Source: Actinomycetota bacterium
GTDB lineage: Bacteria > Actinomycetota > Acidimicrobiia > Acidimicrobiales > Ilumatobacteraceae
Reading direction: 5' to 3'
NCBI GenBank assembly: GCA_016870215.1
Contig: VGCD01000016.1
Location: 1-39,723, forward strand
DNA: 39,723 bases
The notes under the pieces are model-generated. The model saw only the letters and a program-made list of their open reading frames with translations. It was not told the origin of the DNA and searched no databases. Positions within the stretch are counted from its first letter, which is position 1. Every line of letters begins with the position of its first letter. Below are positions 1-15,219 of this stretch, in pieces. A program made the translations under genes and the position numbers.

Positions 1-1
1 G

Positions 2-352: not shown

Positions 353-652
353 AACCCCGACGAGAACCACGACGGACTCCTCCCGCGAACACCCACACAC
401 CGGACACTGCCAGAACCGCAAGACCCAGTACCCCGACGACGATTCTCTTTACAGGTTTCAGTGTGTCTCAAAGCGGGTTTTGTTCATACGGTTCGGCTCG
501 CTCAGGAGCGCAGAGCGGAGTACTCCTTGATCACTACGTCCAGATACAACTGGGCGGTGTCACAGGTGTGCTCAGCCCAACTCACGGGCCTGTTCGTGGT
601 GTCCTTGCATCACCGTGAATTCGGCTGCCGCACAACCATACAGATGAAATCA
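353..652. other. Gap after cobT with a possible decayed protein-coding fragment
   Basis: No intact gene is seen in these 300 nt. On the minus strand from 609 to 502 a frame reads through about 35 codons to a TGA, with a protein-like composition (it contains RPVSWAEHTC and LYLDVVIKEYSALRS). It has no plausible start because a TGA precedes it at 612-610. It could be the C-terminal remnant of a lost gene. I do not recognise the family. No convincing promoter or terminator is visible. Confidence 0.3.
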
Positions 653-1459
653 TTACACCCGAGCGAATCGCTCAGTTTCTTCACTGAACCACTGACTTAT
701 ATCACTTGTGACCGAAGCCCTCGTTCGAGCAATTGCAGCATCAAGATCGTCAGAAGAAATGTAGGGAGGTTTGATGCCTTCACGAATTCGGTCAAATGCT
801 GCCGTGGCTGCTCGCTGAGCTGCTAATTCAATATCGCCTGGGGTGTAGCCGTCGGATTCTCTCGCAAGCTTTTCAATGTCAACTCCGCGTTGATCTAGAC
901 GTGAAAGTGCAGCCTCCCAGAGTGCAAGACGGGCAGTGAGGTCTGGCGGCCCAATAGGAATAACCAGGTCAAACCTGCCGGGACGCAACACCGCTGAATC
1001 AATATCGCCAACAAAATTCGTGGCACACACCAAGAGATGTCTGGGGGTCACACGATACAACGGGATCATCTTCAATAATTCGTTGACAACTCCTTTTGTT
1101 GTTGGGTTTCGCTCTCTCGCCGATGCGATTTCGTCGAATTCATCTATAAAAACAACGGCCCGTTCTAACTGCAACAAGTCATTCATCGCCTGACGAAGTT
1201 CTGACGAAATTGAGTCAGCCCCACTTTCTAATTTGGAGGGGAGCAACTCAATAAACGGCCAACCGAGCCGTCCAGCAATCGCCCTGGCGAATGTTGTCTT
1301 TCCGGTTCCTGGAGGACCAAAAAGCAAAACAGTCGCAGGTGCTTTCACACCCACTTTCTCTGCAGTGGTTGGGTCGGCGAATGGGGCCACAACACGACCA
1401 TCTATAATCTTCTTCTCGACATGCATACCCGCCACACAGTCCCAAAGTTCGGACGACAA
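653..1459 (-). CDS. AAA+ ATPase module, C-terminal part of a broken GNAT-AAA gene
   Basis: A 268-aa open frame with a complete classical AAA+ core: Walker A GPPGTGKT at residues 48-55, Walker B VVFIDEFDE at about 102-110, a sensor-1 asparagine in CATN near residue 148, and the RPGRFD element of the second region of homology near 159-164, followed by the alpha-helical lid with the GYTPGDIE motif. This resembles the FtsH/Cdc48-type AAA clade but has no protease or transmembrane segment, so it is probably a soluble remodelling ATPase of unknown substrate. The first codons (SSELWDCVAG) do not look like a natural N-terminus: adding one base to the G-run at 1465-1470 fuses this frame to the upstream GNAT-containing frame as QYGGEILSSELW. 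I therefore think this is the C-terminal half of one larger gene and may not be translated separately. Confidence 0.8.
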   Translation of the reverse strand: MSSELWDCVAGMHVEKKIIDGRVVAPFADPTTAEKVGVKAPATVLLFGPPGTGKTTFARAIAGRLGWPFIELLPSKLESGADSISSELRQAMNDLLQLERAVVFIDEFDEIASARERNPTTKGVVNELLKMIPLYRVTPRHLLVCATNFVGDIDSAVLRPGRFDLVIPIGPPDLTARLALWEAALSRLDQRGVDIEKLARESDGYTPGDIELAAQRAATAAFDRIREGIKPPYISSDDLDAAIARTRASVTSDISQWFSEETERFARV

Positions 1460-1878
1460 AATCTCCCCCCGTATTGATCAACGATGCGCATAGCAGTGGG
1501 CGCGATTGGCTCTAACTTTTCATACAAAATCAAATCATGAATGGCGGAAAAACCTCGGTTCACCAGAGCTGTCTCGCCAGCTTGCGATTTTGACAACAAC
1601 GCAGAAATTTTTCGGACGCCAAGCAGGATCAATTGCCACCACATTTATCCAGCCATCATCAGACACAACGCGAGCCTGAATGACTCCGATGATCCGATCG
1701 CCATCAATTGCGACTGCTCCCGGTGCACCTGAGGAAACGTCGTTCACAAACTGTGCGATATCGGCAGGCTTTGTGTCGGGCAACAGCCGGCATTCTTCCA
1801 ACAAGCGAACTGCTTGGCCAATGTCAGAAGGAAGCAAATCACGAACAATTACAGACGCAGCTAGGTGATATCACTCAT
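1460..1878 (-). pseudogene. GNAT acetyltransferase N-terminal part of the GNAT-AAA gene, frameshifted
   Basis: Upstream of the AAA module, translated pieces in different minus-strand frames join into a plausible GNAT fold: VIVRDLLPSDIGQAV (GNAT N-terminus), DGDRIIGVIQARV and VVAIDPAWRP (the strand before the acetyl-CoA loop), then, in another frame, ISALLSK...ALVNRGF...LYEKL, then DQYGG leading to the AAA frame. Three shifts are needed: around 1865 (ATG at 1878 followed by a premature TAG), in a run of five A/T near 1609-1613, and in the C/G run at 1465-1470. Two of these lie in homopolymers, so sequencing error is possible; gene decay is the alternative. A GNAT-AAA fusion is unusual and may have coupled acetylation to remodelling. 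Function unknown. Confidence 0.55.
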
Positions 1879-1923
1879 TTGCCTGTCACTGTGGTGGACC
1901 TTGTCCTGACTTATCCGCATTAC

Positions 1924-2080
1924 CGCGTTCCAAAAAATGGCGTTTCGCGTTCCAAACGTTTACTGAAACCCCGGCCGCTGCCGCATCATGACTACAGTTT
2001 GGAATTACGCACCAGCCTCACGGAGGCTGGGGATGGTGCGAAATTCACACCGCATTTCGAGTCATCTATAGAAACGTTAC
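1924..2080. repeat. Imperfect direct repeat, left copy, flanking the purine block
   Basis: About 157 nt that recur in the same orientation at 14367-14535 with roughly 80% identity. The two copies share the blocks GGCGTTTCGCGTTCCAAAC, TTTACTGAAACCCC, CGCACCAGCCTCACGGAGGC and GGCTGGGGATGGTGCGAAA, and end with similar TCATCTA...GTTAC/CTTAC text. The centre is a strong stem-loop at 2002-2046. Both copies happen to be open in one plus-strand frame, but most differences between them change the encoded residue (about two synonymous among a dozen differing codons), so this behaves as a structured DNA/RNA element rather than a protein gene. Confidence 0.85.
2002..2046. other. Conserved stem-loop inside left repeat
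   Basis: GAATT-A-CGCACC-AGCCTC, loop ACG, GAGGCT-GGGGAT-GGTGCG-A-AATTC. Two six-base helices and a five-base outer helix pair exactly, with an asymmetric six-base GGGGAT bulge on the 3' side and one A/A mismatch. The bulge is identical in the right copy, which suggests it matters. Confidence 0.7.
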
Positions 2081-2175
2081 TAGCGGCAGCCAGAATTTCA
2101 GAAGAAAAAAGGTTCAACTCTACTGCGGCTGGCAAATCTTGCTGGACCTAAACGCGACAACGCGTGAGTTCGTGC

Positions 2176-3666
2176 CTACGAGTGATAATTCGGTGCCTCA
2201 TGAGTAATCGTGACGTCATGAGGATGACTCTCTTCGCGTCCTGCAGTTGTGACCTTCATGAAGCGACCTTTTTCTTGGAGTTCTCGGATGTTGGCAGCTC
2301 CGACATACCCCATACCGGATCGAAGCCCGCCAAGTAATTGGTACACCACATCGCTAAGTGAGCCCGAGTAAGCAACCCGACCCTCAATTCCCTCTGGTAC
2401 GAGTTTTGGTTGGCCCTGCGCACTTCCCTGAGCACTGCCGTAGCGGTCAGCACCAAGGCCCTGCATAGCCCCAATCGACCCCATACCACGATACGTCTTG
2501 TACCGACGTCCTTCGAATAATTCATGCTCTCCTGGTGCTTCATCAGTGCCAGCAAGCAAACTACCCAGCATCACAACATGCGCACCAGCAGCAAGTGCCT
2601 TCACCACATCACCTGAATAGGTAATTCCACCGTCGGCAATAAGGGACACACCACGTGCCGCTGCTCGTCGTGCTGTGTGCCAGATAGCAGACAACTGGGG
2701 CATTCCCGCTCCCGACACTACGCGTGTTGTACAAATGGAGCCAGCTCCCACACCAACTTTGACTGCATCAGCGCCGACATCAACAAGTGCATCAGCGCCT
2801 TCCTCGGTGACAACATTGCCTGCAATAACTGCGAGCGTTGGCCATGCTGACCTAATGCGTCGTACTGCTGTCAGAACTCCTTGAGTGTGACCATGAGCAG
2901 TATCAACAACCACAACATCAATGCCAGCATGAACTAATGCCGCAACACGATCCTCTAGGTCGGGACCCACACCTACGGCAGCACCGACTCGCAGTCTCCC
3001 GCCGCTATCACGTGTAGCCCGCGGGTACTCTCTGGCTTTCATAATGTCCTTGACCGTGATGAGGCCCTGCAAATGTCCCCTGTCATCAACAAGTGGCAAC
3101 TTCTCAATTCGGTGTTTTTGTAGCAGTCTGCGAGCTTCGTCGAGAGTCGTACCCACAGACGCAGTAACAAGTGGGGTACGTGTCATGAAGCCGCTCACTG
3201 GCTTGGCAAAGTCTGCCTCTTCGCAAAATCGGATGTCACGGTTTGTCAGAATTCCGAGAAGCAGTCCATCTGTATCTGTAATTGGAACACCAGAAAAGTG
3301 ATACTTGTTCATCAGCGCTTCAGCATCTGCCAACGTAGCTGTCGCTGGGAGCGTGACCGGATCCGTAATCATTCCGGCCTGTGATCGCTTCACTTGTGCG
3401 ACATTGTTTGCCTGTTCCACAATCGTCATATTGCGATGCAAAATTCCAATGCCGCCAAGTCGAGCGAGAGCGATTGCCATGGGAGCCTCTGTCACTTTGT
3501 CCATTGCCGCAGACATCACAGGTGCTGACAGCGTGATGTCCTGTACTAGGTGAGATGAAACATCTACATCACTTGGTAACACGTCGCTGAATCCGGGCAC
3601 CAAGACAACATCATCAAAGGTCAACCCTTCAATTGGACTAAATAACTGATCATTCAATGGGTTCAT
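2176..3666 (-). CDS. guaB: IMP dehydrogenase GuaB
   Basis: 496 aa, the normal length. It oxidises IMP to XMP with NAD+, the committed step to GMP. The order is an N-terminal barrel segment, a pair of CBS domains at about residues 95-215, then the rest of the (beta/alpha)8 barrel. The catalytic loop reads [11 protein letters not shown] with the nucleophilic cysteine at about 312; most family members have proline in place of the second alanine (GPGSICTTR). The IADGGI and RGMGSIGAM motifs for IMP binding are present, as is the ALG...[13 protein letters not shown] flap region. Its ATG overlaps the purN stop by four bases, so it is the last gene of the minus-strand pur operon. Placing guaB at the end of a pur operon links AMP/GMP branch flux to IMP supply. 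Confidence 0.97.
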
Positions 3667-4289
3667 GACACGGAATCAATTTCTTGGCCAGCTACAAAAT
3701 TTTGACATAGATCGTTGAGTGTTTGTACTAGTAGAATATGCTCCCGCTCATGCATTCGTTCTGTAAATGACTCAAGTGTGTCATGTGCATGAATCGGTAC
3801 AACTTCGCTCGCAAGGACGGGCCCCGTGTCGACTCCTTCGTTGGGAACCAAGTGCACCGTAATACCGCTGTGTGTTCGCCAATTGTCACGGGACTCAGCA
3901 AATGCACGCTCAATGGAATGTGTACCTGGCAATTCTCCTGGCAACGCTGGATGAAGATTGACAACTTGTGACGGGAACTGTTGCAAAAAATTATTCGACA
4001 AGATTCTCATAAAGCCAGCAAGAACCACAATGTCTGGGGAGAATCCCTTCACAACCTCTAGCAGTCGGAGATCGTACGCTGCTCGCGTCTCGTTTGGTAC
4101 TGGTGCAACGACAACGACGGACACCTTGCTTCGTTCTGCTCGAGCAATAGCAGGTACACCTTCCTTACTTGACACAACCCCAACAACGTCAGCGCGCAAC
4201 AAACCGTGCTCACACGCGTCAAGAATTGCCTGCAGATTGCTGCCATTACCCGACACCATGACAGCAAGACGAGGTCGAAATACCTTCAT
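3663..4289 (-). CDS. purN: Phosphoribosylglycinamide formyltransferase PurN
   Basis: 208 aa. It transfers a formyl group from 10-formyltetrahydrofolate to GAR (step 3 of IMP synthesis). The N-terminal phosphate-binding loop reads VMVSGNGSNLQA; the catalytic triad is visible as Asn111 and His113 in VVNLHPALPG and Asp154 in EGVDTGP. One difference from most family members is GELPGTHS where LPSFPGxHA-type sequence (often AFxGxHA) is more usual. It overlaps the purD-purM fusion by four bases upstream (ATGA) and guaB by four bases downstream, so it is translationally coupled to both. The order GARS-AIRS then GAR transformylase is the same as the domain order of the animal trifunctional GART protein. 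Confidence 0.96.
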   Translation of the reverse strand: MKVFRPRLAVMVSGNGSNLQAILDACEHGLLRADVVGVVSSKEGVPAIARAERSKVSVVVVAPVPNETRAAYDLRLLEVVKGFSPDIVVLAGFMRILSNNFLQQFPSQVVNLHPALPGELPGTHSIERAFAESRDNWRTHSGITVHLVPNEGVDTGPVLASEVVPIHAHDTLESFTERMHEREHILLVQTLNDLCQNFVAGQEIDSVS

Positions 4290-6562
4290 TGCAATGCCAC
4301 TCGAGGTTTGTTTTGTCCCTGTTCATGCAAGGTACCGATCACCCATGTGTCTTCAGTGAGAAGCGCCCGGATGTCTGCGACATCACCTGACGAAACAATG
4401 ACAACCATTCCGATACCCATGTTGAGCGTGCGGTACAACTCGTCTGTTTCTAAGGTGACCAAGCCTTCAATAAATTTAAATAGTGGTGGTTTTGGCCATG
4501 AAGAGATATCAACTGTTGCTGCAATTCCATCTGGGAATACACGGGGAAGATTCTCCAGCAGCCCACCTCCCGTAATATGTACCAAAGCCTTCACACGGGG
4601 GTCTTTCAAAACCGGACCCAGCACATCGAGGTAACTGCGGTGTGGCTCAAGCAATGCATCCACAAGTGGTCGCGTCAACGGTGGTGGAACAACGTCAAGT
4701 GGCAACCATTCCAGAATGCTACGTAGTAACGAATAGCCATTGGTGTGTGGCCCATTAGATGCCAGGCCAATCAACACATCGCCTTCTGCAACGGTGGGGC
4801 GAGGAAGCAGATCCTTTTTATCAACGATGCCTACTAATGTCCCCGCAACGTCGAAGGCTCCGGGCGCATAGACACCAGGCATTTCTGCAGTTTCACCACC
4901 CAACAAAACACACCCACCAGCTGCACATGCTTCTGCCATCCCCGACACCACGTCTGCCACCATTTCAGCGTTGATGCGCGATGAAGCCAGGTAGTCCAAG
5001 AAGAAAAGTGGTCGTGCGCCCTGCACTAAAACATCGTTGATGCAATGATTCACAATGTCCATGCCAGCACCACGCACTCGGCCCGTGCGTGCAGCCAGTT
5101 CGACCTTTGTGCCCACACCATCAGTCGATGCAACCAACACAGGCTGCTCAAAGTCTTTCAAGAAGGAGACATCAAGGGCGCCACCAAATGCTCCGACTCC
5201 GCGTAACACACTTTCTGTTGCTGTGGACGTCACGCTCTTTTTCAAAAGATCAACAGCTCTATTGCCCTCGTCAATATTCACACCTGCAGAGGAGTACGAC
5301 ATCAAATTCGACGCAGGGGCCCGCCAGCCAATGTCTCGCCGAAAATAAGAGCCGGGAAAAGAGATCTTCCCGACACGTGCATACGTATGGCGACGAGCAG
5401 AACGGAGATCAGGCCCCATACCAACAACTGTCATGACTCGACCACCATTGGTGACAAGAGCGCCGTTCTCCCTCTTCGTACCACCATGAAAAACATTGGT
5501 GTGTAAATCAGATAATTCACTTCCAGATATGGGGTCACCCAACCGAGGTGTTGCGGGATAATGCGCTGCCGTCATAACAACAGCATGAGCACTCAGTGGT
5601 TTCGTTTTTACCTGACCAGCACTCAATGTTCCGTCAACACACGCGAGTGCAAGATCTACTAGGTCTGTACTGAGCAGAGACAACAACACTTGTGCTTCAG
5701 GGTCCCCGAAGCGACAATTGTATTCCAAGAGCCGAGGGCCATCTTTTGTAAGCATCAATCCTGCATACAAGATCCCTTTATATGGTGTTCCTACCTCAGC
5801 AAAATGATCGATAATCGGCTGAATAAAAGTAGCGGAAAGATCATCGATGTCATACGGCACTGACACAGGAGCGTAAGCACCCATCCCACCCGTGTTGGCA
5901 CCCAAGTCTCCCTCACCAATACGCTTGTGGTCTTGAGCAATTGGTAACGGCACTGCACTGACGCCATCGCACAAGGCCATAAGGGAACATTCAGGGCCTT
6001 GCAGCATTTCTTCCAAGACCACCGGGCCAATGGCACACGCCTCAACGATGGCGGAGTGTGTTTCACATTCGTTTTCTGGTACCACAACGCCCTTGCCACT
6101 CGCCAGACCAGACTGTTTCACCACCACCGGCGAACCTAAGTGCCTCCACCATGACACTGCGGACTCACTATTGCCCTTTTCAAAACTCGCAAACCGAGGA
6201 CCAGGAATTCCTAACTTTTCTGCCAACTCCCGTGAGTACACCTTGGATGCCTCAATTTCAGCAAGCTGTTTCGTTGGGCCAAAAGCCTTCACCCCAATTG
6301 CTGACAGTGCATCCACCACACCCGCCGCCAACGCCAACTCTGGTCCAATCAGAACAAGATCTACCTTTTCCGCCTCACACAATGAGACAATCCCGGCGAC
6401 ATCATCAACTTCGACACAGAATTGTTCACCCGGCATTCCGCCATTTCCGGGCGCGACCAATAAGCGTGAGCAACGCAACGACTGCTGAACACTGTGAGCT
6501 ATGGCATGTTCCCTGCCACCACTGCCGAGAACGAGCACCGTGAGTTGACGAGGTGCACTCAT
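4286..6562 (-). CDS. purD-purM: Fused PurD-PurM: GAR synthetase / AIR synthetase
   Basis: 758 aa in one uninterrupted frame. Residues 1-415 are a full GAR synthetase (step 2): VLGSGGREHA near the start, the ATP-grasp GLASGKGV at 152-159, GANTGGMGAY at 221-230, LEYNCRFGDPEAQ at 279-291, and the usual family ending YFRRDIGWRA. After a linker of about six residues (416-421) a full AIR synthetase (step 5) runs to the end: SYSSAGVNIDEGN, ASTDGVGTK at 478-486, GGETAEMPG at 555-563, and HITGGGLLENLPR at 662-674. The linker ends in a methionine at 421, directly before the position where free PurM proteins start, as if an ancestral start codon were retained. Yeast Ade5,7 and animal GART have this fusion; it is uncommon in bacteria. 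It overlaps purF and purN by four bases each. Confidence 0.96.
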   Translation of the reverse strand: MSAPRQLTVLVLGSGGREHAIAHSVQQSLRCSRLLVAPGNGGMPGEQFCVEVDDVAGIVSLCEAEKVDLVLIGPELALAAGVVDALSAIGVKAFGPTKQLAEIEASKVYSRELAEKLGIPGPRFASFEKGNSESAVSWWRHLGSPVVVKQSGLASGKGVVVPENECETHSAIVEACAIGPVVLEEMLQGPECSLMALCDGVSAVPLPIAQDHKRIGEGDLGANTGGMGAYAPVSVPYDIDDLSATFIQPIIDHFAEVGTPYKGILYAGLMLTKDGPRLLEYNCRFGDPEAQVLLSLLSTDLVDLALACVDGTLSAGQVKTKPLSAHAVVMTAAHYPATPRLGDPISGSELSDLHTNVFHGGTKRENGALVTNGGRVMTVVGMGPDLRSARRHTYARVGKISFPGSYFRRDIGWRAPASNLMSYSSAGVNIDEGNRAVDLLKKSVTSTATESVLRGVGAFGGALDVSFLKDFEQPVLVASTDGVGTKVELAARTGRVRGAGMDIVNHCINDVLVQGARPLFFLDYLASSRINAEMVADVVSGMAEACAAGGCVLLGGETAEMPGVYAPGAFDVAGTLVGIVDKKDLLPRPTVAEGDVLIGLASNGPHTNGYSLLRSILEWLPLDVVPPPLTRPLVDALLEPHRSYLDVLGPVLKDPRVKALVHITGGGLLENLPRVFPDGIAATVDISSWPKPPLFKFIEGLVTLETDELYRTLNMGIGMVVIVSSGDVADIRALLTEDTWVIGTLHEQGQNKPRVALQ

Positions 6563-7995
6563 GCCAGAACCTGTCCAAAAGAATCTTTGCGGCGGGGTGC
6601 TGGAATTTCAACCGGGTACACACCTGTGAAACAGGCATTGCAATACCCCTCTTTACGCCCTACTGCACTCATCATTCCATCGAGAGACAGGAACGCAAGT
6701 GAGTCAGCCTTCACGACTGAACACAATTCTTCAAGATTCAGGCGTGCCGCAATCAGATCATCGTCATGACCCATATCAACACCAAAATGGCACGGATGTT
6801 TAATCGGCGGGCTCGTAATCCGCAAATGAACTTCTGTGGCGCCGGCGTCGCGAATGAGTTGCACCAAAGGCCCAGACGTTGTGCCACGCACTAATGAGTC
6901 ATCAATTAGAACAACCCGCTTACCCCGAAGATTTTCTGGCAGTGCATTGAATTTCATTGCAACCCCCCGCTCGCGCATCAGGGTTGTTGGTTCTATAAAA
7001 GTGCGGCCGATGTAACGATTCTTAATGAGCCCATCGTTGTATTCAATGCCAGTCTGACGAGAGAAACCAACAGCGGCAGGAACAGACGAATCTGGAACGG
7101 GAACAACAACGTCTGCATCGACACCTGATTCGCGCGCCAACTGTTCTCCCATGCGCTGGCGAACACCATGTACGCTTAGGCCATCCCATTGCGAGTCGGG
7201 TCGTGAGAAGTACACAAACTCGAACGTGCACCGTGAAGATTTAACCGATGGCATCAGCGCTTGCCGGCGCGCAAGCTCGTTTCGCTTGAGTGTCACAATC
7301 TCTCCGGGGCAAACTTCTGACACTTCGGTGCAGCCCAAGGTGCTCAGAGCACAGGTTTCTGACGCAACAGCCCAGCCACCATCTGGCAATTTGCCCACAG
7401 ACATTGGTCGAAAGCCCCACGGATCTCGCACTGCAATGACACGGTCTTCCACCAATGTCACCAACGAATAGGCACCTATCCACGACGACAATGTGCGGGC
7501 CAACCGATCTTCCCAAGTTGCGCCTCCAGCCGATGCCAACATCAAGGTCATCACTTCGGTGTCAGATGACGCAGTCAGTCCAAAACCCTTCGCTAGCAAC
7601 TCAGAGCGAAGTTCGTGCGCATTGACCAAGTTGCCATTGTGGGCAACTGCTAACGGTCCATGAACCGTTTCAACAAGAAATGGTTGGGCGTTCCGTGCAC
7701 TTGAGCCTCCAGTGGTGGAGTACCGAGTATGGCCAACGCCATTGGTGCCTCGCAACGGTGCCAAATTCGCAGGCGTAAAGACTTGAGTCACCAAACCATC
7801 GGCTTTGTGTATGTGGGCCTGAGACCCATCAGACACTGCTATTCCTGCTGCTTCTTGACCGCGATGCTGCAAAGCAAACAACCCGAAAAAGACCAACTGC
7901 GCAACGTCCTCGGTAGGTGACGATATTCCTATCACGCCGCATTCTTCGTGTAACCGGTCTGACAGCACGCTGTCACAATTACATTCGGGCTTCAT
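6559..7995 (-). CDS. purF: Amidophosphoribosyltransferase PurF, Fe-S type
   Basis: 478 aa from the ATG at 7995. It makes phosphoribosylamine from PRPP and glutamine, the first committed step. I chose this start because AAAGGAA lies 8-9 nt upstream and the start falls within the last codons of purC; the frame is open up to 8064 but an upstream start would overlap purC by 86 nt. An 18-residue propeptide precedes the Ntn nucleophile Cys19 in EECGVIGI. The PRPP loop reads VVLIDDSLVRGTTSG. Cysteines in CTFEFVYF, KHPCHFG and YCNACFTG match the four [4Fe-4S] ligands of the Bacillus subtilis enzyme, so it is probably the oxygen-labile, Fe-S containing class. It overlaps the purD-purM start by four bases. 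Confidence 0.96.
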   Translation of the reverse strand: MKPECNCDSVLSDRLHEECGVIGISSPTEDVAQLVFFGLFALQHRGQEAAGIAVSDGSQAHIHKADGLVTQVFTPANLAPLRGTNGVGHTRYSTTGGSSARNAQPFLVETVHGPLAVAHNGNLVNAHELRSELLAKGFGLTASSDTEVMTLMLASAGGATWEDRLARTLSSWIGAYSLVTLVEDRVIAVRDPWGFRPMSVGKLPDGGWAVASETCALSTLGCTEVSEVCPGEIVTLKRNELARRQALMPSVKSSRCTFEFVYFSRPDSQWDGLSVHGVRQRMGEQLARESGVDADVVVPVPDSSVPAAVGFSRQTGIEYNDGLIKNRYIGRTFIEPTTLMRERGVAMKFNALPENLRGKRVVLIDDSLVRGTTSGPLVQLIRDAGATEVHLRITSPPIKHPCHFGVDMGHDDDLIAARLNLEELCSVVKADSLAFLSLDGMMSAVGRKEGYCNACFTGVYPVEIPAPRRKDSFGQVLA

Positions 7996-8938
7996 AAGAC
8001 GTCGTTCCTTTGTAGAATTTTTCGAGTCGATGTTGCACTGGATATTCCCCTGGCTCAAAGTCATGACCTGTCAAACGGGTGAAGGCCGTAACATAGCGCT
8101 TCGTTGTTTCCGAAATAATTGAGTCGTCAAGCAATGGTGGAGCGTCGTCCCCGTTGTAACCCACAGCATCAAGCGCAAGCCTCACGGGTTCTTTGTCGAG
8201 ACTCTCCGGCTCTTCACCACGCTCGAGTCGTTCGCTATAGGTACTCAGTTCCCAATACCGTGACGAGTCAGGTGTGTGCAACTCGTCTATCAATATGACT
8301 GATCCGTCAGAAGCCAGTCCAAATTCATACTTGGTATCAGCCAACAAGAGCCCGGCTTTCTTTGCTACTCGTTGACCATGTGCAAAAAGTTCCAATGCAG
8401 CTTTTTGAACTACATCCCAAACATCCGCGTCCACAAATCCTCGTGCGACCACGTCATTGCACGTCAAGGGCTCATCGTGTTTGCCGGTATCACCTTTCGT
8501 TGTGGGCGTAATAATTATCTGTGGCAAGACAGAATTTTTTTGCATCCCATCAGGAAAGTCATATCCATAAATATGTCGCATGCCATTGCTGTATTGACGC
8601 CACAACGACGTTGTTGTTGAACCTGTCATCACACCGCGCACAACCACTTCAACTGCCAGCGGCGTTGCTGCATGGCCAATAGTTGCATTCGGGTCTGGGC
8701 AACTAATGAAATGGTTCCTTATGATATGTCGCGTATTTTCGAACCACCACGCAGACAATTGATTCAGGACTTGGCCTTTGTACGGCACCACAGCAACAAT
8801 ACGATCAAATGCCGAAAGTCGATCTGTTGTCAGAAACAGTCGTGTGTTGTCGGGCAGTGCGTAAGACACTCGCACCTTTCCCGTTCTTCTGTCTGGTAGA
8901 GAAAGCACGACATCTGAACATCCTCTAATTGCTGACAT
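7979..8938 (-). CDS. purC: SAICAR synthetase PurC
   Basis: 319 aa, in the range of the longer eukaryote-like/actinobacterial form (E. coli is about 237). It condenses CAIR with aspartate using ATP (step 8). Signatures visible are the N-terminal LFLTTDRLSAFD, then VVRGVMTGSTTTSLW (the family motif for SAICAR binding), LLADTKYEFG, and ELHTPDSSRYW. It lies between purQ and purF in the minus-strand operon, overlapping purQ by 14 bases and purF by 17. Confidence 0.96.
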   Translation of the reverse strand: MSAIRGCSDVVLSLPDRRTGKVRVSYALPDNTRLFLTTDRLSAFDRIVAVVPYKGQVLNQLSAWWFENTRHIIRNHFISCPDPNATIGHAATPLAVEVVVRGVMTGSTTTSLWRQYSNGMRHIYGYDFPDGMQKNSVLPQIIITPTTKGDTGKHDEPLTCNDVVARGFVDADVWDVVQKAALELFAHGQRVAKKAGLLLADTKYEFGLASDGSVILIDELHTPDSSRYWELSTYSERLERGEEPESLDKEPVRLALDAVGYNGDDAPPLLDDSIISETTKRYVTAFTRLTGHDFEPGEYPVQHRLEKFYKGTTSYEARM

Positions 8939-9674
8939 ACCTCACTCCTTCCTGAAATAGAGCGAGACCCATTCCGCCACTTATTCCCCTGTGAAATTTG
9001 GGATGCTGACGCACCACAACATGATTTTCCGGGTGTGGCATCAGACCCAGTACCACGCCGCTATCATCGCAAATCCCAGCAATGTCATAGACAGATCCAT
9101 TCGGATTCCCGTTCACATACCGAAGAGCAACTTGATCATTTTCAATCAATTTGGCCAAGGTTGAATCAGTTGTTGTGAATCTGCCTTCACCATGCGCAAT
9201 CGGACACGTAATATTTTGCCTGAGATGCCGAGTCCAAATACATTTTTTGGACGTCGGTGTCATCTCTACCCAGCGGCAATCGAACACGCCAGATTCATTG
9301 TGCCCAAGCGCACCAGATTTCTCGGCGCCGGGCAAAATTCCCATTCGCACCAAAGTCTGAAACCCGTTACAAATTCCAATGACGGGCCGGCGGTCTGCAA
9401 TTGCGGCAGTGATGCGCTCGCCCATTGACGCTTGAAGTTCCAACGCAAATATTCGACCCGCTCCTAGCGCATCGGCGTACGAAAACCCACCTGCAATCAC
9501 CAAAATGTCAGCATCATCAATGCGCGATGGCTCAGAAACAATGTCGGACATGAGGTATCTCGTAGGCCGTACACCGGCTTGTTCTAATGCAAACGACACA
9601 TCTGCATCTCTGTTTGTTCCCGGTGCGCACAGCACACCAGCAGTCGGTGAGGTCTTCACTGTTGTGGTATCCAT
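8925..9674 (-). CDS. purQ: FGAM synthase glutaminase subunit PurQ
   Basis: 249 aa from the ATG at 9674, overlapping the purL end by 19 nt; a GTG three codons further upstream is the alternative start. It is the class I glutamine amidotransferase that supplies ammonia to PurL in step 4. The nucleophile is Cys102 in VIGICNGFQTL, and the catalytic His-Glu pair is in LMPHPENHVV near the C-terminus. The oxyanion segment is IAGGFSYADALGAGR. As in other split systems, PurQ is encoded directly after the synthetase subunit, so a PurSL-PurQ complex is expected. Confidence 0.95.
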   Translation of the reverse strand: MDTTTVKTSPTAGVLCAPGTNRDADVSFALEQAGVRPTRYLMSDIVSEPSRIDDADILVIAGGFSYADALGAGRIFALELQASMGERITAAIADRRPVIGICNGFQTLVRMGILPGAEKSGALGHNESGVFDCRWVEMTPTSKKCIWTRHLRQNITCPIAHGEGRFTTTDSTLAKLIENDQVALRYVNGNPNGSVYDIAGICDDSGVVLGLMPHPENHVVVRQHPKFHRGISGGMGLALFQEGVRYVSN

Positions 9675-12496
9675 GAATTGCACAGCTCAGCCACTGACAC
9701 AGCCTGTTTGTCTGAAAACTTGAGCACATCTAGTTCTGTCACTGTCCCCAAAATGCAGGAGGATTCGGCAAAAAGTGACAACACCTCAGAGACATGGTGT
9801 GGAGCAACTTCCACAATAAATCGGCCATTTGATTCGCTAAACAACCATTGGGCATCAGAGGCGTTCTCACAGCCACTCATGTCAACCCCTAGTCGACCAC
9901 CAATTGCCATTTCAGCTACTGCAACTGCAATTCCACCTTCAGAAACGTCATGGCATGACCGAATGAGACCATCGCGAATGGCGCGATGCAAAACCCGGTA
10001 TCGACTAGGTGCTGTGGCATCGGCGTCGGGCACAACACCGCTAAATGACAAATTTTTTATTTTTGCCAAATGGCTTGCCCCGACTTCACACAACGTATGC
10101 CCTAGAACTACCAGCACATTTTGCGCCTCTTTAATATCTGGCGTCACTGTTTTATTTGCATCTGGCACATGCGCAACAGCCGTGATCACCAAGGTGGGTG
10201 GAACAGAATGGCGCTCACCATCTCTGCCGAAATACTCGTTGTTTAAAGAGTCTTTGCCGGAAACGAATGGCGCCGAGTGCGCAATTGCAGCCGTGCAACA
10301 GCCCTTCACTGCCGCTACCAAATGGCCAAGTGTCGTCTGTCGCCGCGGATCCCCCCAGGAGAAATTGTCGAGAAGTGCAACTTTGTCGGGGTCCGCGCCC
10401 ACTGCCACAACATTGCGAATTGCTTCATCTACTACGGATAGCGCCATTCGCTCGGGGTCCTTTTCGCCAAACCACGGGTTCACCCCAATGCCGATTGCTA
10501 TTCCATGAGTATTACGAGGCTCCGCGAGTACAACCCCATCTGCATGTCCATCCTGTTGCGCCCCCACTAATGGACGCACAAGTGTTGCACCCCCAATTTC
10601 ATGGTCGTATCTGTGAATAATTGCTTCTTTTGAAGAGATGTTTGGATGCCGCAACAACTGCTGCAATGTCAACACAACATCAATGTCTCCAAAGACATAC
10701 TGAAAGTCATTGCAACTCATCTCTGAACGATGAGGTGTTGGCATAACTGCCGTCATTTGGCGCTGCGGACGACCATTGTGCAAAAAATGCGTGTCAACAT
10801 CAAAAACAATGTCACCCTTGTTGTGCACAATCAGTCGGCCATCACCGGTGAACTCACCAATGTCTGTGCATTCGACGCCGTATACACGACAGGCCTCTTT
10901 TAAAGGCTTCACATCTGGTGCTGCAACAACCATGCGCTCTTGGGCTTCGGACAGCCAAATTTCCCACGGGGAGAGTCCCGGGTACTTCAATGGCAGTTCA
11001 GACAACTCAACTGACGCTCCAACACCTTCTGCCATTTCACCAATCGCAGAAGACAGACCACCAGCACCACAGTCTGTAATGGCACGAAACAAATGCTGCC
11101 CTTCTCCTAGGATATCAATCAGTAATTTTTCTGTAATCGGATCACCAATTTGCACACTGGCACCCGCCACATCACCAGTTGTTGCATCCATTGTCATGGA
11201 CGAAAACGTTGCACCACGTAGTCCATCTCTACCTGTTCGGCCGCCCAGCACCACAACACGATCACCAGGTTGGGGTGTTTCTGTTGCATATCGTCCGTGT
11301 GCCACGCCAATACATCCGGCATACACCAGCGGGTTGGCCGTGTATCCGGGGTCATACAACACAGCACCCGCAACCGTGGGCAAGCCAATCTTGTTGCCAT
11401 AGTCTGCAATTCCAGCTACCACGCCGGCACGAATGCGTCGTGGGTGAAAGACACCATCTGGCAAGTCCAAACCATCTGTGTCAGGGGGCCCAAAGCACAA
11501 AATGTTCGTGCACGCAATCGGCAAGTGCGATGCTCCTAAGACATCTCGAATTACTCCACCAACACCAGTATTTGCCCCACCAAATGGTTCAACTGCACTG
11601 GGATGATTATGTGTTTCACATTTCAGTGCAATTGTCGTGCCTTCAACAAAAGAAATCACTCCGGCATTACCCACGAATGAGCTCACCACAAACGGTGCAG
11701 CAATGGTCTGTGTTGTTTCTCGCAGCTGATTAATGAGAGATTCCAGAACCTCGCCAGAGTCAGTCGTAATACTTGCCCGAAATGTTTTGTGCGCACAGTG
11801 TTCGCTCCACGTCTGAGCAATTGCCTCAAGTTCAATATCTCGTACGCCGCGCCCGCAGTAGTGGTCGCGCACCGCTCGTAGTTCCTCTATGTCAAGAGCT
11901 AGTCCTCGTTCTACGTTCAATTCCTGCAGTTGGGCATCTGTCGCATCTGTTGCAAGTTCCACAACCTCAACAGAGCTCACAATTGTTCCAGTGCCTGTCG
12001 GCATAACAGGTACAAGTGGTGCATCGACAGACCAGTATTCAATAACCGGATTAGCCAGCAACTTGCGCACCAATAGGTCAAGTTCATACGAGTCCAGCTT
12101 GCCCGCAAGGTCAAAACGCTTCGCGGTAGTGACTACGTCAATACTGATTCCCAATCTGGCAGCGATTCGCTGCAATTGCTGCGACGCAGCGTCGGTCACA
12201 CCAGCATGAAGTGCAGTTTCTACAAAGTGATCGCATGTCTTTGTTGTTGTTCCCCATGTGGCCTGTTGCAATAGCGACTCAACCAAGATGTCTTCTAAAA
12301 ATGCACGGCTTTCGTTGCTCAAATTTCCGTGAATGAAGTACACGTCGACAACGTTTATTTCACGTAAGGCTGTAAGACCCAGGTCATACGCATCATTGAG
12401 AAATGCCTGAGCACGGGGGTCTTTGCCTACAAATTGAATTTCGAGGCGGTGAACATCGTGATCAGATCGCACGGTATTAACCCCCCTCGGAAACAT
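9656..12496 (-). CDS. purL: FGAM synthase subunit PurSL (PurS-like domains fused to PurL)
   Basis: 946 aa, about 200 longer than small PurL (~740) and well short of the single-chain enzyme with fused glutaminase (~1300). Residues ~16-85 and ~88-156 look like two PurS-type units; the second has the classic VETALHAGVTD, AKRFDL and KLLANPVIEYW pattern. Residues ~180-946 are PurL: TWSEHCAHKTF at 229-239, ALKCETHNHPSA, GGANTGVGGVIRD, and a second half with FSWGDPR and VSGKDSL. It converts FGAR to FGAM with ammonia from PurQ. This matches the PurSL architecture, where PurS, normally a separate scaffold between PurL and PurQ, is fused. It is the first gene of the minus-strand operon; the start ATG has only a weak ribosome site. 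Confidence 0.95.
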   Translation of the reverse strand: MFPRGVNTVRSDHDVHRLEIQFVGKDPRAQAFLNDAYDLGLTALREINVVDVYFIHGNLSNESRAFLEDILVESLLQQATWGTTTKTCDHFVETALHAGVTDAASQQLQRIAARLGISIDVVTTAKRFDLAGKLDSYELDLLVRKLLANPVIEYWSVDAPLVPVMPTGTGTIVSSVEVVELATDATDAQLQELNVERGLALDIEELRAVRDHYCGRGVRDIELEAIAQTWSEHCAHKTFRASITTDSGEVLESLINQLRETTQTIAAPFVVSSFVGNAGVISFVEGTTIALKCETHNHPSAVEPFGGANTGVGGVIRDVLGASHLPIACTNILCFGPPDTDGLDLPDGVFHPRRIRAGVVAGIADYGNKIGLPTVAGAVLYDPGYTANPLVYAGCIGVAHGRYATETPQPGDRVVVLGGRTGRDGLRGATFSSMTMDATTGDVAGASVQIGDPITEKLLIDILGEGQHLFRAITDCGAGGLSSAIGEMAEGVGASVELSELPLKYPGLSPWEIWLSEAQERMVVAAPDVKPLKEACRVYGVECTDIGEFTGDGRLIVHNKGDIVFDVDTHFLHNGRPQRQMTAVMPTPHRSEMSCNDFQYVFGDIDVVLTLQQLLRHPNISSKEAIIHRYDHEIGGATLVRPLVGAQQDGHADGVVLAEPRNTHGIAIGIGVNPWFGEKDPERMALSVVDEAIRNVVAVGADPDKVALLDNFSWGDPRRQTTLGHLVAAVKGCCTAAIAHSAPFVSGKDSLNNEYFGRDGERHSVPPTLVITAVAHVPDANKTVTPDIKEAQNVLVVLGHTLCEVGASHLAKIKNLSFSGVVPDADATAPSRYRVLHRAIRDGLIRSCHDVSEGGIAVAVAEMAIGGRLGVDMSGCENASDAQWLFSESNGRFIVEVAPHHVSEVLSLFAESSCILGTVTELDVLKFSDKQAVSVAELCNSWIPQQ

Positions 12497-12627
12497 TAGT
12501 GATGCGCGCTAGTGCCAACAAGGTCAATGCCCAACTTTAATAAATAGTCAAAAGTATTCCTTTACGGAAAGTACAAGTGTGGCAATTTCTCGCTCTGAGT
12601 TGACATGCTTCCGTCTACGATCAGTGC
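12497..12627. promoter_or_regulatory. Divergent promoter region of purL operon and purEK
   Basis: 131 nt between divergent pur genes. For purE, TACGAT at 12616-12621 ends six bases before the GTG start, the leaderless layout seen elsewhere in this window. For purL, the minus strand is AT-rich at about 12535-12570 with candidate hexamers (TACTTT, TATTTA), which would leave a leader of about 40-60 nt. No PurR-type palindrome or purine riboswitch core was recognised. Confidence 0.5.
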
Positions 12628-13128
12628 GTGCCTGAAATTCCTTTTCCACTTGTGAGTGTTGTGATGGGCTCACGTAGTGACTGGGCGGTCATGTCACAAT
12701 CTGTCAGTATTCTCGAGCTTTTCGGTATCCCTCACGAGACGCAGGTTCTCTCAGCACATCGCATGCCCGATGAATTGTTCTCCTTCGCCGAAACTGCAAA
12801 AACACGAGGAATTAGGGCAATAATTGCTGGCGCTGGGGGCGCTGCCCACCTTCCCGGAATGCTCGCAGCAAAGACTCTTGTTCCCGTCTTGGGTGTACCT
12901 GTTCCAACAATGCACCTTGCTGGTGAAGACTCCCTTTATTCCATTGTGCAAATGCCTGCTGGCACTCCCGTTGCAACTTTTGCCATTGGCGAGGCCGGCG
13001 CAATAAATGCTGCACTCTTTGGAATTGAACTTCTTGCCCACGACAATGAACAATTGCACAGCGCGCTCGCTGAGTACCGCCGAAATCGTCACGACGACGC
13101 TGCGTCTAGCGTTCTTCCGCCCACCTAA
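12628..13128 (+). CDS. purE: N5-CAIR mutase PurE
   Basis: 166 aa, usual for class I PurE, which moves the carboxylate of N5-CAIR to give CAIR (step 7). Motifs: MGSRSDW at 13-19 (phosphate loop), SAHRMP at 42-47 (catalytic His), AGAGGAAHLPGM and GEDSLYSIVQMPAGTPVAT. The start is GTG, seven bases after a TACGAT hexamer, so the transcript probably begins at or next to the start codon. It shares one base with purK (TAATG). Confidence 0.96.
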   Translation: MPEIPFPLVSVVMGSRSDWAVMSQSVSILELFGIPHETQVLSAHRMPDELFSFAETAKTRGIRAIIAGAGGAAHLPGMLAAKTLVPVLGVPVPTMHLAGEDSLYSIVQMPAGTPVATFAIGEAGAINAALFGIELLAHDNEQLHSALAEYRRNRHDDAASSVLPPT

Positions 13129-14282
13129 TGTCAACGACGCTTGGCGTTCTCGGAGGCGGGCAACTTGGCAACTACTTCGTTCTTGCGGCCAAGAAATTGG
13201 GGTTCCGAACAGCTGTGCTAGACCCAGATCCGTATGCGCCAGCAGGTGCACACGCAGATACACACATTGTTGCCCAGTACGACAATGTGCAGGCGCTAAC
13301 AGAACTTGCCAGAATCTGCAGTGCTGTCACTATTGAGTTTGAAAACCTACCTGTTTCATCGTTGGAGTTTCTTTCACAATTTGTCGAGGTTTATCCCTCT
13401 CCCTCCAGTGTAGCAGTGGCGCAGAACCGTCGAGATGAAAAACGCTTTTGCGAATCTATTGGTCTGTTAGTTGCACCATATGAAGTTCTGGAGACACCAG
13501 AAGATGCCGAGCGCATCTCACGTCTCGGCGTCACTCGTATGCCCTTGCAGCCGTTAAGTGCGCCGTTGCTCATGAAGACCAGCCGACTTGGGTACGACGG
13601 CAAAGGTCAACAAAAAATCACCAAGCTCACAGACATTTCTGCGCTGTGGCACAACGTCAACAATGTGCCGTGTGTTGTTGAACAAGTAGTCCCTCTTGAC
13701 GCAGAATTTTCAATTGTTCTTGCGCGTTCACGCACTGGCGAAGTGGCCGTATTTACACCCACCCACAATGTCCACGTTGATGGCATTCTTGATGTCAGCA
13801 CTGCTACCACGGCCCTCGCAGCAATAGACGTTGAATTTTTTCGCACTGGTGAATTAATTGCTATACGCATTGCTGAAAAACTCGCTTATGTTGGCGTTCT
13901 TTCAGTTGAGTTTTTTCTTTCTGGCAACAAACTTTTCGTTAACGAACTTGCACCTCGCCCACATAACAGTGGTCACTGGACAATTGATGCTGCTACCACT
14001 AGCCAGTTTGAGCAACAAGTCCGGACTCTTGTGGGAATGCCACTGGGCGACGCCACCATGACCTATGGCGCGGTGGCTTTAGTCAACCTTCTTGGTGATC
14101 TGTGGAGAAATGGAGAACCACGGTTTCAAGTTGCCGAAGAAGACGCCTCTTCACATTTACATCTATACGGCAAAGCTGAAGCACGCCCCCGCCGCAAAAT
14201 GGGGCACATCACCGTCACCGGCACTGATGCGCTATCTGTGACACGTCACGCGATTGATTTACGCACCAAAATCACTCGCTAG
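13128..14282 (+). CDS. purK: N5-CAIR synthetase PurK
   Basis: 384 aa, ATP-grasp enzyme that carboxylates AIR with ATP and bicarbonate (step 6). Visible are LGGGQLGNYF near the N-terminus, TIEFENLP, the ATP-grasp segment LLMKTSRLGYDGKGQ, the EFSIVLARS strand, and the C-terminal VNELAPRPHNSGHWT that carries metal and substrate ligands. Its ATG overlaps the purE stop by one base, so the pair is co-transcribed. It ends where the right flanking repeat region begins. Confidence 0.96.
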   Translation: MSTTLGVLGGGQLGNYFVLAAKKLGFRTAVLDPDPYAPAGAHADTHIVAQYDNVQALTELARICSAVTIEFENLPVSSLEFLSQFVEVYPSPSSVAVAQNRRDEKRFCESIGLLVAPYEVLETPEDAERISRLGVTRMPLQPLSAPLLMKTSRLGYDGKGQQKITKLTDISALWHNVNNVPCVVEQVVPLDAEFSIVLARSRTGEVAVFTPTHNVHVDGILDVSTATTALAAIDVEFFRTGELIAIRIAEKLAYVGVLSVEFFLSGNKLFVNELAPRPHNSGHWTIDAATTSQFEQQVRTLVGMPLGDATMTYGAVALVNLLGDLWRNGEPRFQVAEEDASSHLHLYGKAEARPRRKMGHITVTGTDALSVTRHAIDLRTKITR

Positions 14283-14366
14283 CAGGTGAGAGGCTCAGAA
14301 TTCTCACTCCCTATTACAGGCCTGGTTTTTTTGGTCCGCCTCCTTTGGAAGGAGACACCTCAATCG

Positions 14367-14535
14367 CGCGTTTCAAAAGAGGGCGTTTCGCGTTCCAAAC
14401 CTTTACTGAAACCCCCGCCGCTTCCCCATCAATACTGGGGTTCAGAATTTCGCACCAGCCTCACGGAGGCTGGGGATGGTGCGAAATGTGCTGCAAAATT
14501 CATACCGCATGCCGCGTCATCTAAGGAAAGCTTAC
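14367..14535. repeat. Imperfect direct repeat, right copy, flanking the purine block
   Basis: Second copy of the element at 1924-2080, same orientation, 12.4 kb away. It lies between the convergent ends of purK and the 72-aa gene. It carries about 11-13 extra bases after the hairpin compared with the left copy. The same plus-strand frame is open for 103 codons (14286-14597), but substitutions do not preserve residues, so I do not call a gene. Nothing else was identified in 14283-14612 except a short CTCCTT/AAGGAG hairpin at 14340-14354 that lacks a terminator-like T run after it. Confidence 0.85.
14447..14487. other. Conserved stem-loop inside right repeat
   Basis: ATTTCGCACC-AGCCTC, loop ACG, GAGGCT-GGGGAT-GGTGCGAAAT. 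Ten plus six base pairs with the same six-base GGGGAT bulge as the left copy. At the outer stem the left copy has A/A where this copy has a T-A pair, and the flanking pairs differ between copies while pairing is kept in both. Confidence 0.7.
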
Positions 14536-14612
14536 TTTGGGTAGTCAAAAGCAGGAAGAAAACAGGACCAAGATCCCTAGACCCGCCCACTACTTGAGCA
14601 ACAACGGGCACA

Positions 14613-14831
14613 TCACAGACATGATCGAGCGAATGCGACTGCTTGCTCCACTATTTCTAAGGGCACAACCTTCCCCACTGGCGAGGTCTCACGTGTTGTC
14701 GGATTGATTTGGTAGTTTCCCACTCGTCCATATACGAGAACATCTCCATTCAACAAGAGAGTCATTTCATAATCTGTTTGGCCACTGCAGTCCAAAATTG
14801 TTGCCTTGGAGAGGTAACCGTCAAGATTCAT
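14613..14831 (-). CDS. Hypothetical 72-aa protein, last gene of the cobW-like operon
   Basis: A small acidic-to-neutral protein with beta-rich text (YEMTLLLNGDVLVYGRVGNYQI) and a C-terminal helix ending in Cys-Leu. I do not recognise a family. Its start overlaps the end of the ferredoxin-like gene by 11 bases, and it follows three minus-strand genes with overlapping or near-abutting ends, which supports it being translated. It is probably a small accessory subunit of the same zinc-linked set; this is inference from position only. Confidence 0.6.
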   Translation of the reverse strand: MNLDGYLSKATILDCSGQTDYEMTLLLNGDVLVYGRVGNYQINPTTRETSPVGKVVPLEIVEQAVAFARSCL

Positions 14832-15216
14832 GGACAGGAATCCTTCTGGAGTCGCACTTAACTTCTGCTATTTGAGATTCAAGTGTTGGTTCAAACCTGC
14901 AATCCTCAAGCAAGGGCGTGAGAGGCTGAAAGACATCACTCGCTAAGAACTGACAAAGCTCAACGTGAGTTTCGACTTGTGCGAGCCCACCGAGCCAAAT
15001 TTTTTCACCATTGTGTCTCCTGATGACCGCAACATTTGAATAACTGCAGGCGTCAATGCACTTCACGATATGAAGTTTGCCACCAGCCTTCCTGATGACA
15101 TCTTCTAGTTCACGTCGCTGAGCTGCATGATCAAAGTCGGGATGTTTGCGGTCTGTCCCGCAACAGCAATCGCGACACAACAGAACACTAAAGCTCTTCC
15201 TTGTTTCACTTCTCAT
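14821..15216 (-). CDS. Small (2Fe-2S) ferredoxin-like CxxC protein
   Basis: 131 aa. The N-terminal half reads as the thioredoxin-like ferredoxin fold: VLLCRDCCCGTDRKHP with Cys14, 17, 18 and 19, a helix, then KCIDACSYSNVAVIR with Cys53 and Cys57, and a WLGGL segment. In thioredoxin-like [2Fe-2S] ferredoxins two N-terminal and two C-terminal cysteines bind the cluster; here three adjacent cysteines leave the exact ligands open, and zinc binding is an alternative. It follows the WD40 gene after three bases. Given the operator upstream of the operon, a role in metal handling is plausible but not shown. Confidence 0.75.
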   Translation of the reverse strand: MRSETRKSFSVLLCRDCCCGTDRKHPDFDHAAQRRELEDVIRKAGGKLHIVKCIDACSYSNVAVIRRHNGEKIWLGGLAQVETHVELCQFLASDVFQPLTPLLEDCRFEPTLESQIAEVKCDSRRIPVHES

Positions 15217-15219
15217 AGT

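Follow-up and report, generated by a model that had tools for sequence, protein, structure and literature searches.

Direct repeats around a purine synthesis block as probable attachment joints of a tRNA-anchored gene-cassette system in freshwater actinobacteria

Cassette islands at tRNA genes are already known from streamlined plankton, as are islands without an integrase at the RNA gene ssrA. In fGI1 of Candidatus Actinomarinales, small cassettes are added at tRNAs and are marked by repeated tRNA pieces, and cassette transfer between genera has been reported (PMC7771536). In fGI-2 of Candidatus Methylopumilus, islands of 330 bp to 42 kb with 1–63 genes lie at a tRNA, and their repeats are the last 20 bp of tRNA-Lys (PMC10872708). 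The tycheposons of Prochlorococcus, as described in the same paper, have a tyrosine recombinase (xerD) and measure 4–200 kb. Among the Dehalococcoides ssrA islands, 16 have an integration module with a serine integrase and 15 lack it, the latter being suggested to be cis-mobilizable (PMC3146451). Here we analyze a 39,723-nt stretch (the window; contig C16 of the 2.0-Mb draft genome G000) in which two direct repeats enclose a block of purine synthesis genes running from guaB to purK. These repeats are probably the attachment joints at which a system of mobile gene cassettes is assembled in freshwater actinobacteria resembling Ilumatobacteraceae, and the purine block looks like one such cassette.

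Like the additive fGIs, this system places gene cassettes at one tRNA, with cargo that differs between relatives at the same locus (five genomes). Unlike in Methylopumilus, the repeated piece is 8 nt of the tRNA 5′ end, flanked by arms A (96 bp) and B (75 bp) with inverted ends, and unlike in either of these plankton groups the cargo includes most of the purine pathway. The tandem arrangement at one RNA gene and the bounding direct repeats recall the Dehalococcoides islands, from which the system differs in that no integration module was found and no resolvase-family match occurred in 22 genomes. With tycheposons it shares the character of tRNA-anchored cargo elements of streamlined plankton, but cassettes here are mostly 0.4–5 kb with no tyrosine recombinase in the element, and unlike in integrase-bearing tRNA islands, an own integrase was found in 0 of 40 cargo proteins. 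Integrons and CALIN (attC clusters without an integrase; PMC9024848) likewise form single-direction arrays of accessory cassettes, and the integrase is absent here as in CALIN, but this system has no attC motifs, and it has long arms on two sides and a tRNA landing site. Among the papers listed by searches of a limited open-access library, none described it. Its novelty lies in the joints, in the targeting of a tRNA 5′ end, in cassettes that apparently have no mobility gene, and in the purine genes carried as cargo. Such cassettes bear on how streamlined freshwater actinobacteria gain and lose traits such as purD-purM, which was found in only some members of this genus: if our reading is true, guaB and the purF-to-purC steps would travel as one cassette and purine prototrophy would become exchangeable. 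The A and B modules also offer a sequence tag for finding arrays, their cargo and the missing recombinase in any metagenome.

A first-pass annotation of this DNA had reported two same-orientation copies of a repeat just outside guaB and purK, and these were confirmed. A repeat search of the window returned a 130-nt direct repeat at 1915–2044 and 14358–14487 (85% identity), and positions 14367–14536 aligned to copy 1 on the same strand at 79% identity (E = 4.6e-39). We delimit the copies at 1924–2091 and 14367–14545, in one orientation and 79–85% identical around guaB...purK; ∼85 nt lie between the end of copy 1 and the guaB stop (2176), and 85 nt between the purK stop (14282) and the start of copy 2. 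Since copy 2 holds an additional 12-nt piece (a second GGTGCGAAAT-type repeat), the copies are not gap-free over the whole alignment. Within its own draft genome the full repeat was found only in the window, with B-type pieces on C19 (two) and C38 (one). Further copies in relatives, for which the annotation had proposed a search, do exist: copy 2 as query gave matches in 16 of 61 genomes (its own counted), and a composite copy from G025 gave matches in 49 of 200 genomes of the family, in 8 of 27 genera. Carriers of the B pattern are mostly freshwater actinobacteria, several of them apparently Ilumatobacteraceae, Acidimicrobiaceae or acIV.

When the hits are lined up, each copy resolves into module A (∼96 bp), a core of 8–9 bp and module B (∼75 bp). 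Module A contains the direct repeat GCGTTCCAAA twice and ends at GCCTC; module B starts at GGGGATGG and usually contains GGTGCGAAAT twice. In relatives the two modules are also found apart, with inner edges that are mostly precise: most lone A modules end at GCCTC and most lone B modules start at GGGGATGG within one base, beside unrelated sequence, while a few copies, such as those in G002 and G025, are cut off at other points, or have decayed. The core is 8 nt in 11 of 14 clean A-core-B joints and 9 nt in the other three. The outer ends of a cassette are inverted repeats, 5′-GGGGATGGTGCGAAAT at B and 5′-GAGGCTGGTGCGWAAT reading into A. The copies are composite joints, made of the end of one cassette, a core and the start of the next, and in the window they are laid out as follows (bit scores are from hidden Markov models, HMMs).

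1924..2019, forward strand: module A of copy 1, right end of the neighboring cassette (96.7 bits), ending at GCCTC as the lone A modules of relatives do
2020..2028, forward strand: core 1, ACGGAGGCT, made up of T and 8 nt that are reverse-complementary to a tRNA-Arg 5′ end
2029..2091, forward strand: module B of copy 1, left end of the proposed purine cassette, short form with a single GGTGCGAAAT
14367..14462, forward strand: module A of copy 2, right end of the proposed purine cassette (95.8 bits); A also follows purK in G032 and G152
14463..14471, forward strand: core 2, ACGGAGGCT
14472..14545, forward strand: module B of copy 2, left end of whatever follows (61.7 bits)

The core ties the joints to one tRNA gene. 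B lies within 3 nt of a called tRNA 5′ end at 27 of 65 non-redundant B sites, a fraction that is not an unbiased rate since the sites were gathered partly by an exact B pattern. The tRNA is tRNA-Arg(CCT) in 26 of these 27 cases and was called tRNA-Trp(CCA) once. The core is the reverse complement of tRNA nucleotides 1–8 and in nearly all cases reads ACGAAGGC, ACGGGAGC, ACGGAGGC or ACGGGGGC; the 8 nt of core 1 also stand directly before B at the tRNA-Arg(CCT) of G181, G095 and G162. A tRNA target with a repeated piece of the tRNA at the far end is present, but the piece comes from the 5′ end and not the 3′ end. Genes for tRNA-Arg(CCT) without a proper B occur in G010, G023 and G063; that of G023 keeps only a distal B-like piece, a hint that the far end of B, in the reverse direction, acts as the tRNA promoter. 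Reversed B is also found directly ahead of a gene resembling metF in G028:C60, of one resembling small heat-shock genes in G000:C19 (both gene names were read from sequence) and of other open reading frames (ORFs). A G-U wobble in the acceptor stem was considered as a mark of core exchange and rejected, since the element-free tRNA-Arg(CCT) of G063 has the wobble too.

Several observations were made around these tRNA genes. The tRNA called tRNA-Trp(CCA) (L067 138–214, in G000:C19) resembles tRNA-Arg(CCT) with a changed anticodon loop and, as read by eye, an acceptor-stem mismatch; it has probably decayed. A tRNA-Arg-like 3′ half between B and guaB in G004 (L367, ∼7860–7985) may be what is left of an older joint. 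On the 3′ side of tRNA-Arg(CCT), G008 (L064 11678–13057) and G163 (L157), which belong to two genera, have a pair of genes read from their sequence as XRE-like regulator and nucleotidyltransferase-like, with 90% identity over 1380 nt including B. A DUF6036 nucleotidyltransferase is cassette cargo in G195 (L203).

Cassette units are ordered B-cargo-A. Where a contig has two or more sites (20 contigs), the sites after the first, 23 in total, all lie on the same strand as the first. For these site lists and for the counts of B sites and joints given above, weaker matches overlapping stronger ones were dropped, some of them on the opposite strand (the modules are partly palindromic); weak further sites in G014:C40, G003:C15 and G216:C38 were also left out of the strand comparison, each having the strand of its main site. 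In 9 of 17 bounded units, the 8 nt that precede B and the 8 nt that follow A are the same. The remaining units match at 7 of 8 positions (one unit), 6 of 8 (one, G028:C60), 5 of 8 (two), 4 of 8 (one) and 1 of 8 (three: G031:C10, G195 and G228). The identical units include G209, where the target is not a called tRNA and ACGACGGT is found on both sides (8 of 8; two contigs). G028:C55 and G145:C25 entered this comparison as tRNA-side core paired with outer A, their inner A being followed by CACACAAC and ACGGGAGC, respectively, and units with a truncated A (G002, G025) and G128:C77 were not included.

A common gene downstream of the array is found in G008, G002, G025, G028 and G234 (80–86% identity over 356–433 nt to that of G008). 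It directly follows the last element in G002, G008 and G234, and lies beyond it by ∼1.4 kb in G028 and by 2.5 kb in G025, where the opposite side gives a further, weaker match (72%). In front of this gene stand different cassettes, the purine block in G008 and others in the remaining four genomes; only in G008 and G028 does the same contig also include the tRNA end of the array. Of 25 cassette stretches, not all of them complete B..A units, 24 have 1–4 ORFs and 24 have a coding fraction of 0.68–1.01. Their cargo includes GNAT-AAA ATPases, type II NADH dehydrogenase, two-component systems, chromate and ABC transporters, a Rieske oxygenase, TetR regulators, sulfatase, methyltransferase, photolyase-like, RTX and leucine-rich-repeat proteins, and DUF347. 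A domain scan of 40 cargo proteins (39 of the 45 ORFs listed for the 25 stretches and one other) found no recombinase, transposase or phage family at E 1e-5.

The flank comparisons listed, of left against right, gave no clean empty site and exposed a shared cassette. Window positions 643–2027 match a cassette at the tRNA-Arg(CCT) of G181, from another genus (93.7% identity over 993 nt; 89.4% over 414 nt), up to the core, where the similarity stops. For comparison, the xerD region gives a baseline over its alignable parts of 74.1% between G000 and G181, and of 67–74% between G000 and six genomes of G181's genus. The shared part of the window is one feature.

643..2019, no strand assigned: right-hand body of the neighboring cassette, with a disrupted GNAT-AAA ATPase gene (ORFs 653–1459 and 1535–1837, both on the reverse strand)

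Relative to G181, the ATPase gene is broken by 62 missing nt and 1 further missing nt; intact relatives with GNAT and AAA domains are found in L199 and L203. A B-like piece at ∼585–630 was read from the alignment only, the HMM giving no match there. Matches of at least 250 nt and at least 82% identity between different genomes also include an ndh cassette common across genera (G028 or G008 against G216 or G228, 86–91%), cross-genus cassettes in G017 and G209 (86% over 354 nt) and in G026 and G219 (85% over 1353 nt), and inter-genus matches of 97% (G032 with G152 and with G181, and G019 with G189). Because similarity between genomes ends at the core, the movement that it implies is site-specific.

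The proposed purine cassette comprises the following features.

2029..14462, no strand assigned: proposed purine cassette, B of copy 1 to A of copy 2, 12.4 kb, joints with the same core at both ends
2176..3666, reverse strand: guaB, IMP dehydrogenase (TIGR01302, 591 bits)
3663..4289, reverse strand: purN (TIGR00639)
4286..6562, reverse strand: purD-purM fusion (TIGR00877 at 8–416, TIGR00878 at 421–747)
6559..8064, reverse strand: purF (TIGR01134)
7979..8938, reverse strand: purC (NF009251, E 6.5e-111, one bit under the cut-off)
8925..9683, reverse strand: purQ (TIGR01737)
9656..12496, reverse strand: purL with an N-terminal purS-like part (TIGR01736 at 203–942; weak PurS at 92–158, E 8.6e-5)
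12628..13128, forward strand: purE, class I (TIGR01162)
13128..14282, forward strand: purK (TIGR01161)

Purine blocks occur in different contexts with A or B at the border. A, B or a remnant borders the block on one side or both in G000, G004, G008, G022, G032 and G152, which represent three genera: B is beside guaB in G004 and ∼500 nt from guaB in G022, whose contig ends before purK, and A follows purK in G032, where guaB is not on the contig, and in G152, at the contig end. In G008 the block, in the same orientation, shares its contig with a tRNA-anchored array, and 2.9 kb of other genes separate guaB from the nearest clear joint. Window positions 12157–14474 are 83.9% identical to G152, from another genus, and 83.1% to G028, from the same genus, and the match to G152 stops within 3 nt of the core. 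Between G032 and G152, again of two genera, purK-A is 97.5% identical over 761 nt ending at the core, a match that might conceivably stem from one mis-binned contig. The purD-purM fusion was found in 13 of 32 genomes of the genus (leaving out G026, 29% over 91 aa) and a clear purK in 5 of 20 tested genomes (seven matched; the weak matches of G036 and G082, 21–23%, were left out), absences that are soft since many genomes are incomplete; neither was found in G010, which is 96% complete. This patchy distribution could also come from loss. The case for an exchangeable purine cassette is strong but not proven.

G020, G021 and G031 have the block in a common context of their own; searches for purK gave nothing in the loci of G020 and G031 or in the genomes of G021 and G031. 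A second form of the purine operon is seen in L360, L361 and L362 (G031, G020 and G027), with no purK match in the loci and only a distant purE (∼30% identity) within the operon, possibly of class II. The purD-purM fusion is a feature of the streamlined clade, most order-level relatives matching its two parts at separate places.

We propose that a cassette is B-cargo-A, and that its inverted outer ends would meet at the 8–9 bp core. Its home site would be the 5′ end of tRNA-Arg(CCT), the first 8 nt of the tRNA supplying the core. A site-specific recombinase coming from elsewhere, most likely of the tyrosine type, would put circular cassettes into the core, and repeated insertion would build the same-way array tRNA-core-B-cargo-A-core-B-cargo-A-core, so that the A-core-B joint would be the site of the tandem or circular form. 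A promoter directed outward from B may sustain transcription of the tRNA or of another gene. In the window, the 12.4-kb guaB...purK cassette would stand beside a second, decayed GNAT-AAA ATPase cassette; the purine block would itself have moved in this way, and such cassettes may be mobile at the present day. The full proposal, an integron-independent capture system belonging to one family of streamlined freshwater actinobacteria, with the tRNA-Arg(CCT) 5′ end as platform, two-armed joints, no mobility gene in the cassette, a recombinase in trans and one-step gain or loss of a pathway (here purine synthesis), is offered tentatively.

The most serious rival, which we hold to be unlikely yet well worth weighing, is that B..A units are non-autonomous DDE-type transposons. 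Their termini would be 16-bp inverted repeats and the 8 bp a target duplication, and a transposase supplied in trans would mobilize them with a preference for the 5′ end of tRNA-Arg(CCT). The ends are indeed inverted repeats, the 8 bp are duplicated in the nine identical units, mostly at tRNA-type cores and once at the non-tRNA target of G209, the unit of G028:C60 is close to a duplication, and the arbitrary neighbors of lone ends are what random insertion predicts and point to transposition. Set against this are the strong single target, the constant orientation within arrays, the cores of most joints, which resemble tRNA 5′ ends and not arbitrary sequence, and the lack of a transposase among the 40 cargo proteins (transposase families were not searched genome-wide). 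The long two-armed site, the inverted repeats around an 8-bp overlap, the tRNA target and the same-way arrays point to a tyrosine-type integrase acting on circular cassettes, and we favor an integrase over transposition, though not by far.

Several points weigh against the cassette system as we describe it. Lone A ends and several lone B ends adjoin sequence unlike the core, and 4 of the 17 bounded units agree at only 1–4 of 8 core positions, which together fit poorly with an integrase that needs homology in the overlap. One array (L162) has two different cores, and the window core is ACGGAGGC whereas the tRNA cores of its own genome are ACGGGAGC. Clear modules at both ends of the purine block are found only in the window; in G004 purK is not followed by A, in G008 it is followed by remnants (a decayed A of 9.8 bits and ACGAAGGCGGGGG), contig ends interrupt G022 and G032, and G001, G007 and G011 hold the block without recognizable A or B, in one common context. 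The genomes with elements are draft assemblies of at least seven contigs, and the few inter-genus matches of 97% could be mis-binned contigs. Finally, the system's own recombinase was not found: serine resolvases were detected in none of the 22 genomes searched (control positive in 10 of 14), and the two extra PF00589 genes on contigs with A or B (G002:C75 and G209:C80) are both outside a bounded unit.

The search with PF00589 covered 34 distinct genomes (G236, the same genome as G219, was counted once) and one virus record, and gave XerC/XerD-type genes and, in eight genomes, divergent extras; G020 has a second XerD-type gene. Of the places listed, G002:C75 alone shares a contig with a junction of tRNA-Arg(CCT) and B, and it is located 3′ of the tRNA. 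None of them is an integron integrase beside the landing site, as far as short contigs and a search without an IntI-specific model can tell. For a viral integrase acting in trans, IMG/VR yielded the B pattern in one contig (L170, with no PF00589 in the whole record), the A pattern in one (L380) and the left-arm pattern in none; phage and plasmid collections gave no match to the one joint compared, and a search of viral contigs for close relatives of the G002:C75 integrase found none.

That integrase (L079, 4209–10843 in G002:C75) has 401 aa and lies by the 3′ end of tRNA-Arg(CCT), with possible replication and large helicase-like proteins near; it is perhaps part of a separate, conventional second element at the same tRNA. 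The XerC-type recombinases (L096–L106 etc.) are open frames of 443–468 aa in nearly all genus members listed and of 312–317 aa in six of eight genomes of genus g47 (the others 367 and 499), a possible insertion or extension.

The first-pass annotation had suggested a MITE-like (miniature inverted-repeat transposable element) repeat family, and homologous recombination between the copies that could excise or duplicate the 12-kb block; passive dispersed repeats whose recombination moves the block are a reading that we regard as improbable. Two direct repeats of 79–85% identity do surround the block, the family is dispersed, and the block looks movable. The copies, however, are composite joints and not single MITE-like units; their halves occur alone with recurrent edges, they abut tRNAs, and shared cassettes end at the core and not at the outer edge of the repeat. 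Homologous recombination between the two copies could occur but is not needed.

Its other suggestion, an RNA element, to which we add a terminator or promoter of the purine genes, is very improbable. The stable hairpin speaks for it: AGCCTC-ACG-GAGGCT, closed by CGCACC/GGTGCG with a one-sided GGGGAT, is identical in both window copies as had been stated, and the copies fold better than 200 of 200 shuffles (z = −4.7 and −3.6). Across 15 joints (the window's two and 13 from relatives) the AGCCTC/GAGGCT part is not kept, its innermost pair being broken in 9 joints and another pair in 4, with pairing in 79.7% of cells. What persists is the pairing of CGCACCA.CCTC with GGGG.TGGTGCG, the core between them being unpaired (97% of cells). 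The outer stem had been said to keep pairing although its bases differ; the pairing of the cassette ends holds, but in neither structure is any pair altered on both sides, and the shuffle control equals the observed values, so that no signal of covariation is seen. The ‘hairpin’ is the paired inverted cassette ends around a tRNA-derived core. An Rfam scan of the window gave no match at gathering score. Copies also occur at unrelated genes, so they are not confined to pur or gua genes as regulation would have it, and their opposite sense relative to guaB and purK bears out the annotation's remark that they are not directional terminators. A promoter role of B alone is plausible, since reversed B stands just upstream of tRNA-Arg and other gene starts. 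Overall, the earlier interpretation is partly supported.

A chromosomal integron or CALIN, suggested by the same-way array of mostly small cassettes beside a fixed landing site and by the diverse accessory cargo, has the slightest chance of all, as the attC motif pair RYYYAAC...GTTRRRY within 35–140 nt was found in 0 of 8 joints on both strands, long arms stand on both sides of the core, and the landing site is a tRNA gene.

A consensus scan of positions 1–16500 for terminators and promoters stayed below the shuffle mean, with none of the matches listed at the copies, and this candidate was rejected. The joints of G128 and G152 (GCCCC with ACGGGGGC), outside the 15-joint alignment, would keep the inner pairing with one altered pair; a palindromic core may thus be of importance to the recombinase. 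In G216:C38 (L311, 4770–8420), A is followed by GAGTAAAACTGCTCC..., and a near copy of that sequence lies 3.5 kb upstream; this may be a sister family of cassettes that has another B. Elsewhere in the window, 38791–39491 holds repeats within the ORF 38620–39678, spaced in multiples of 48 nt (96, 144 and 240).

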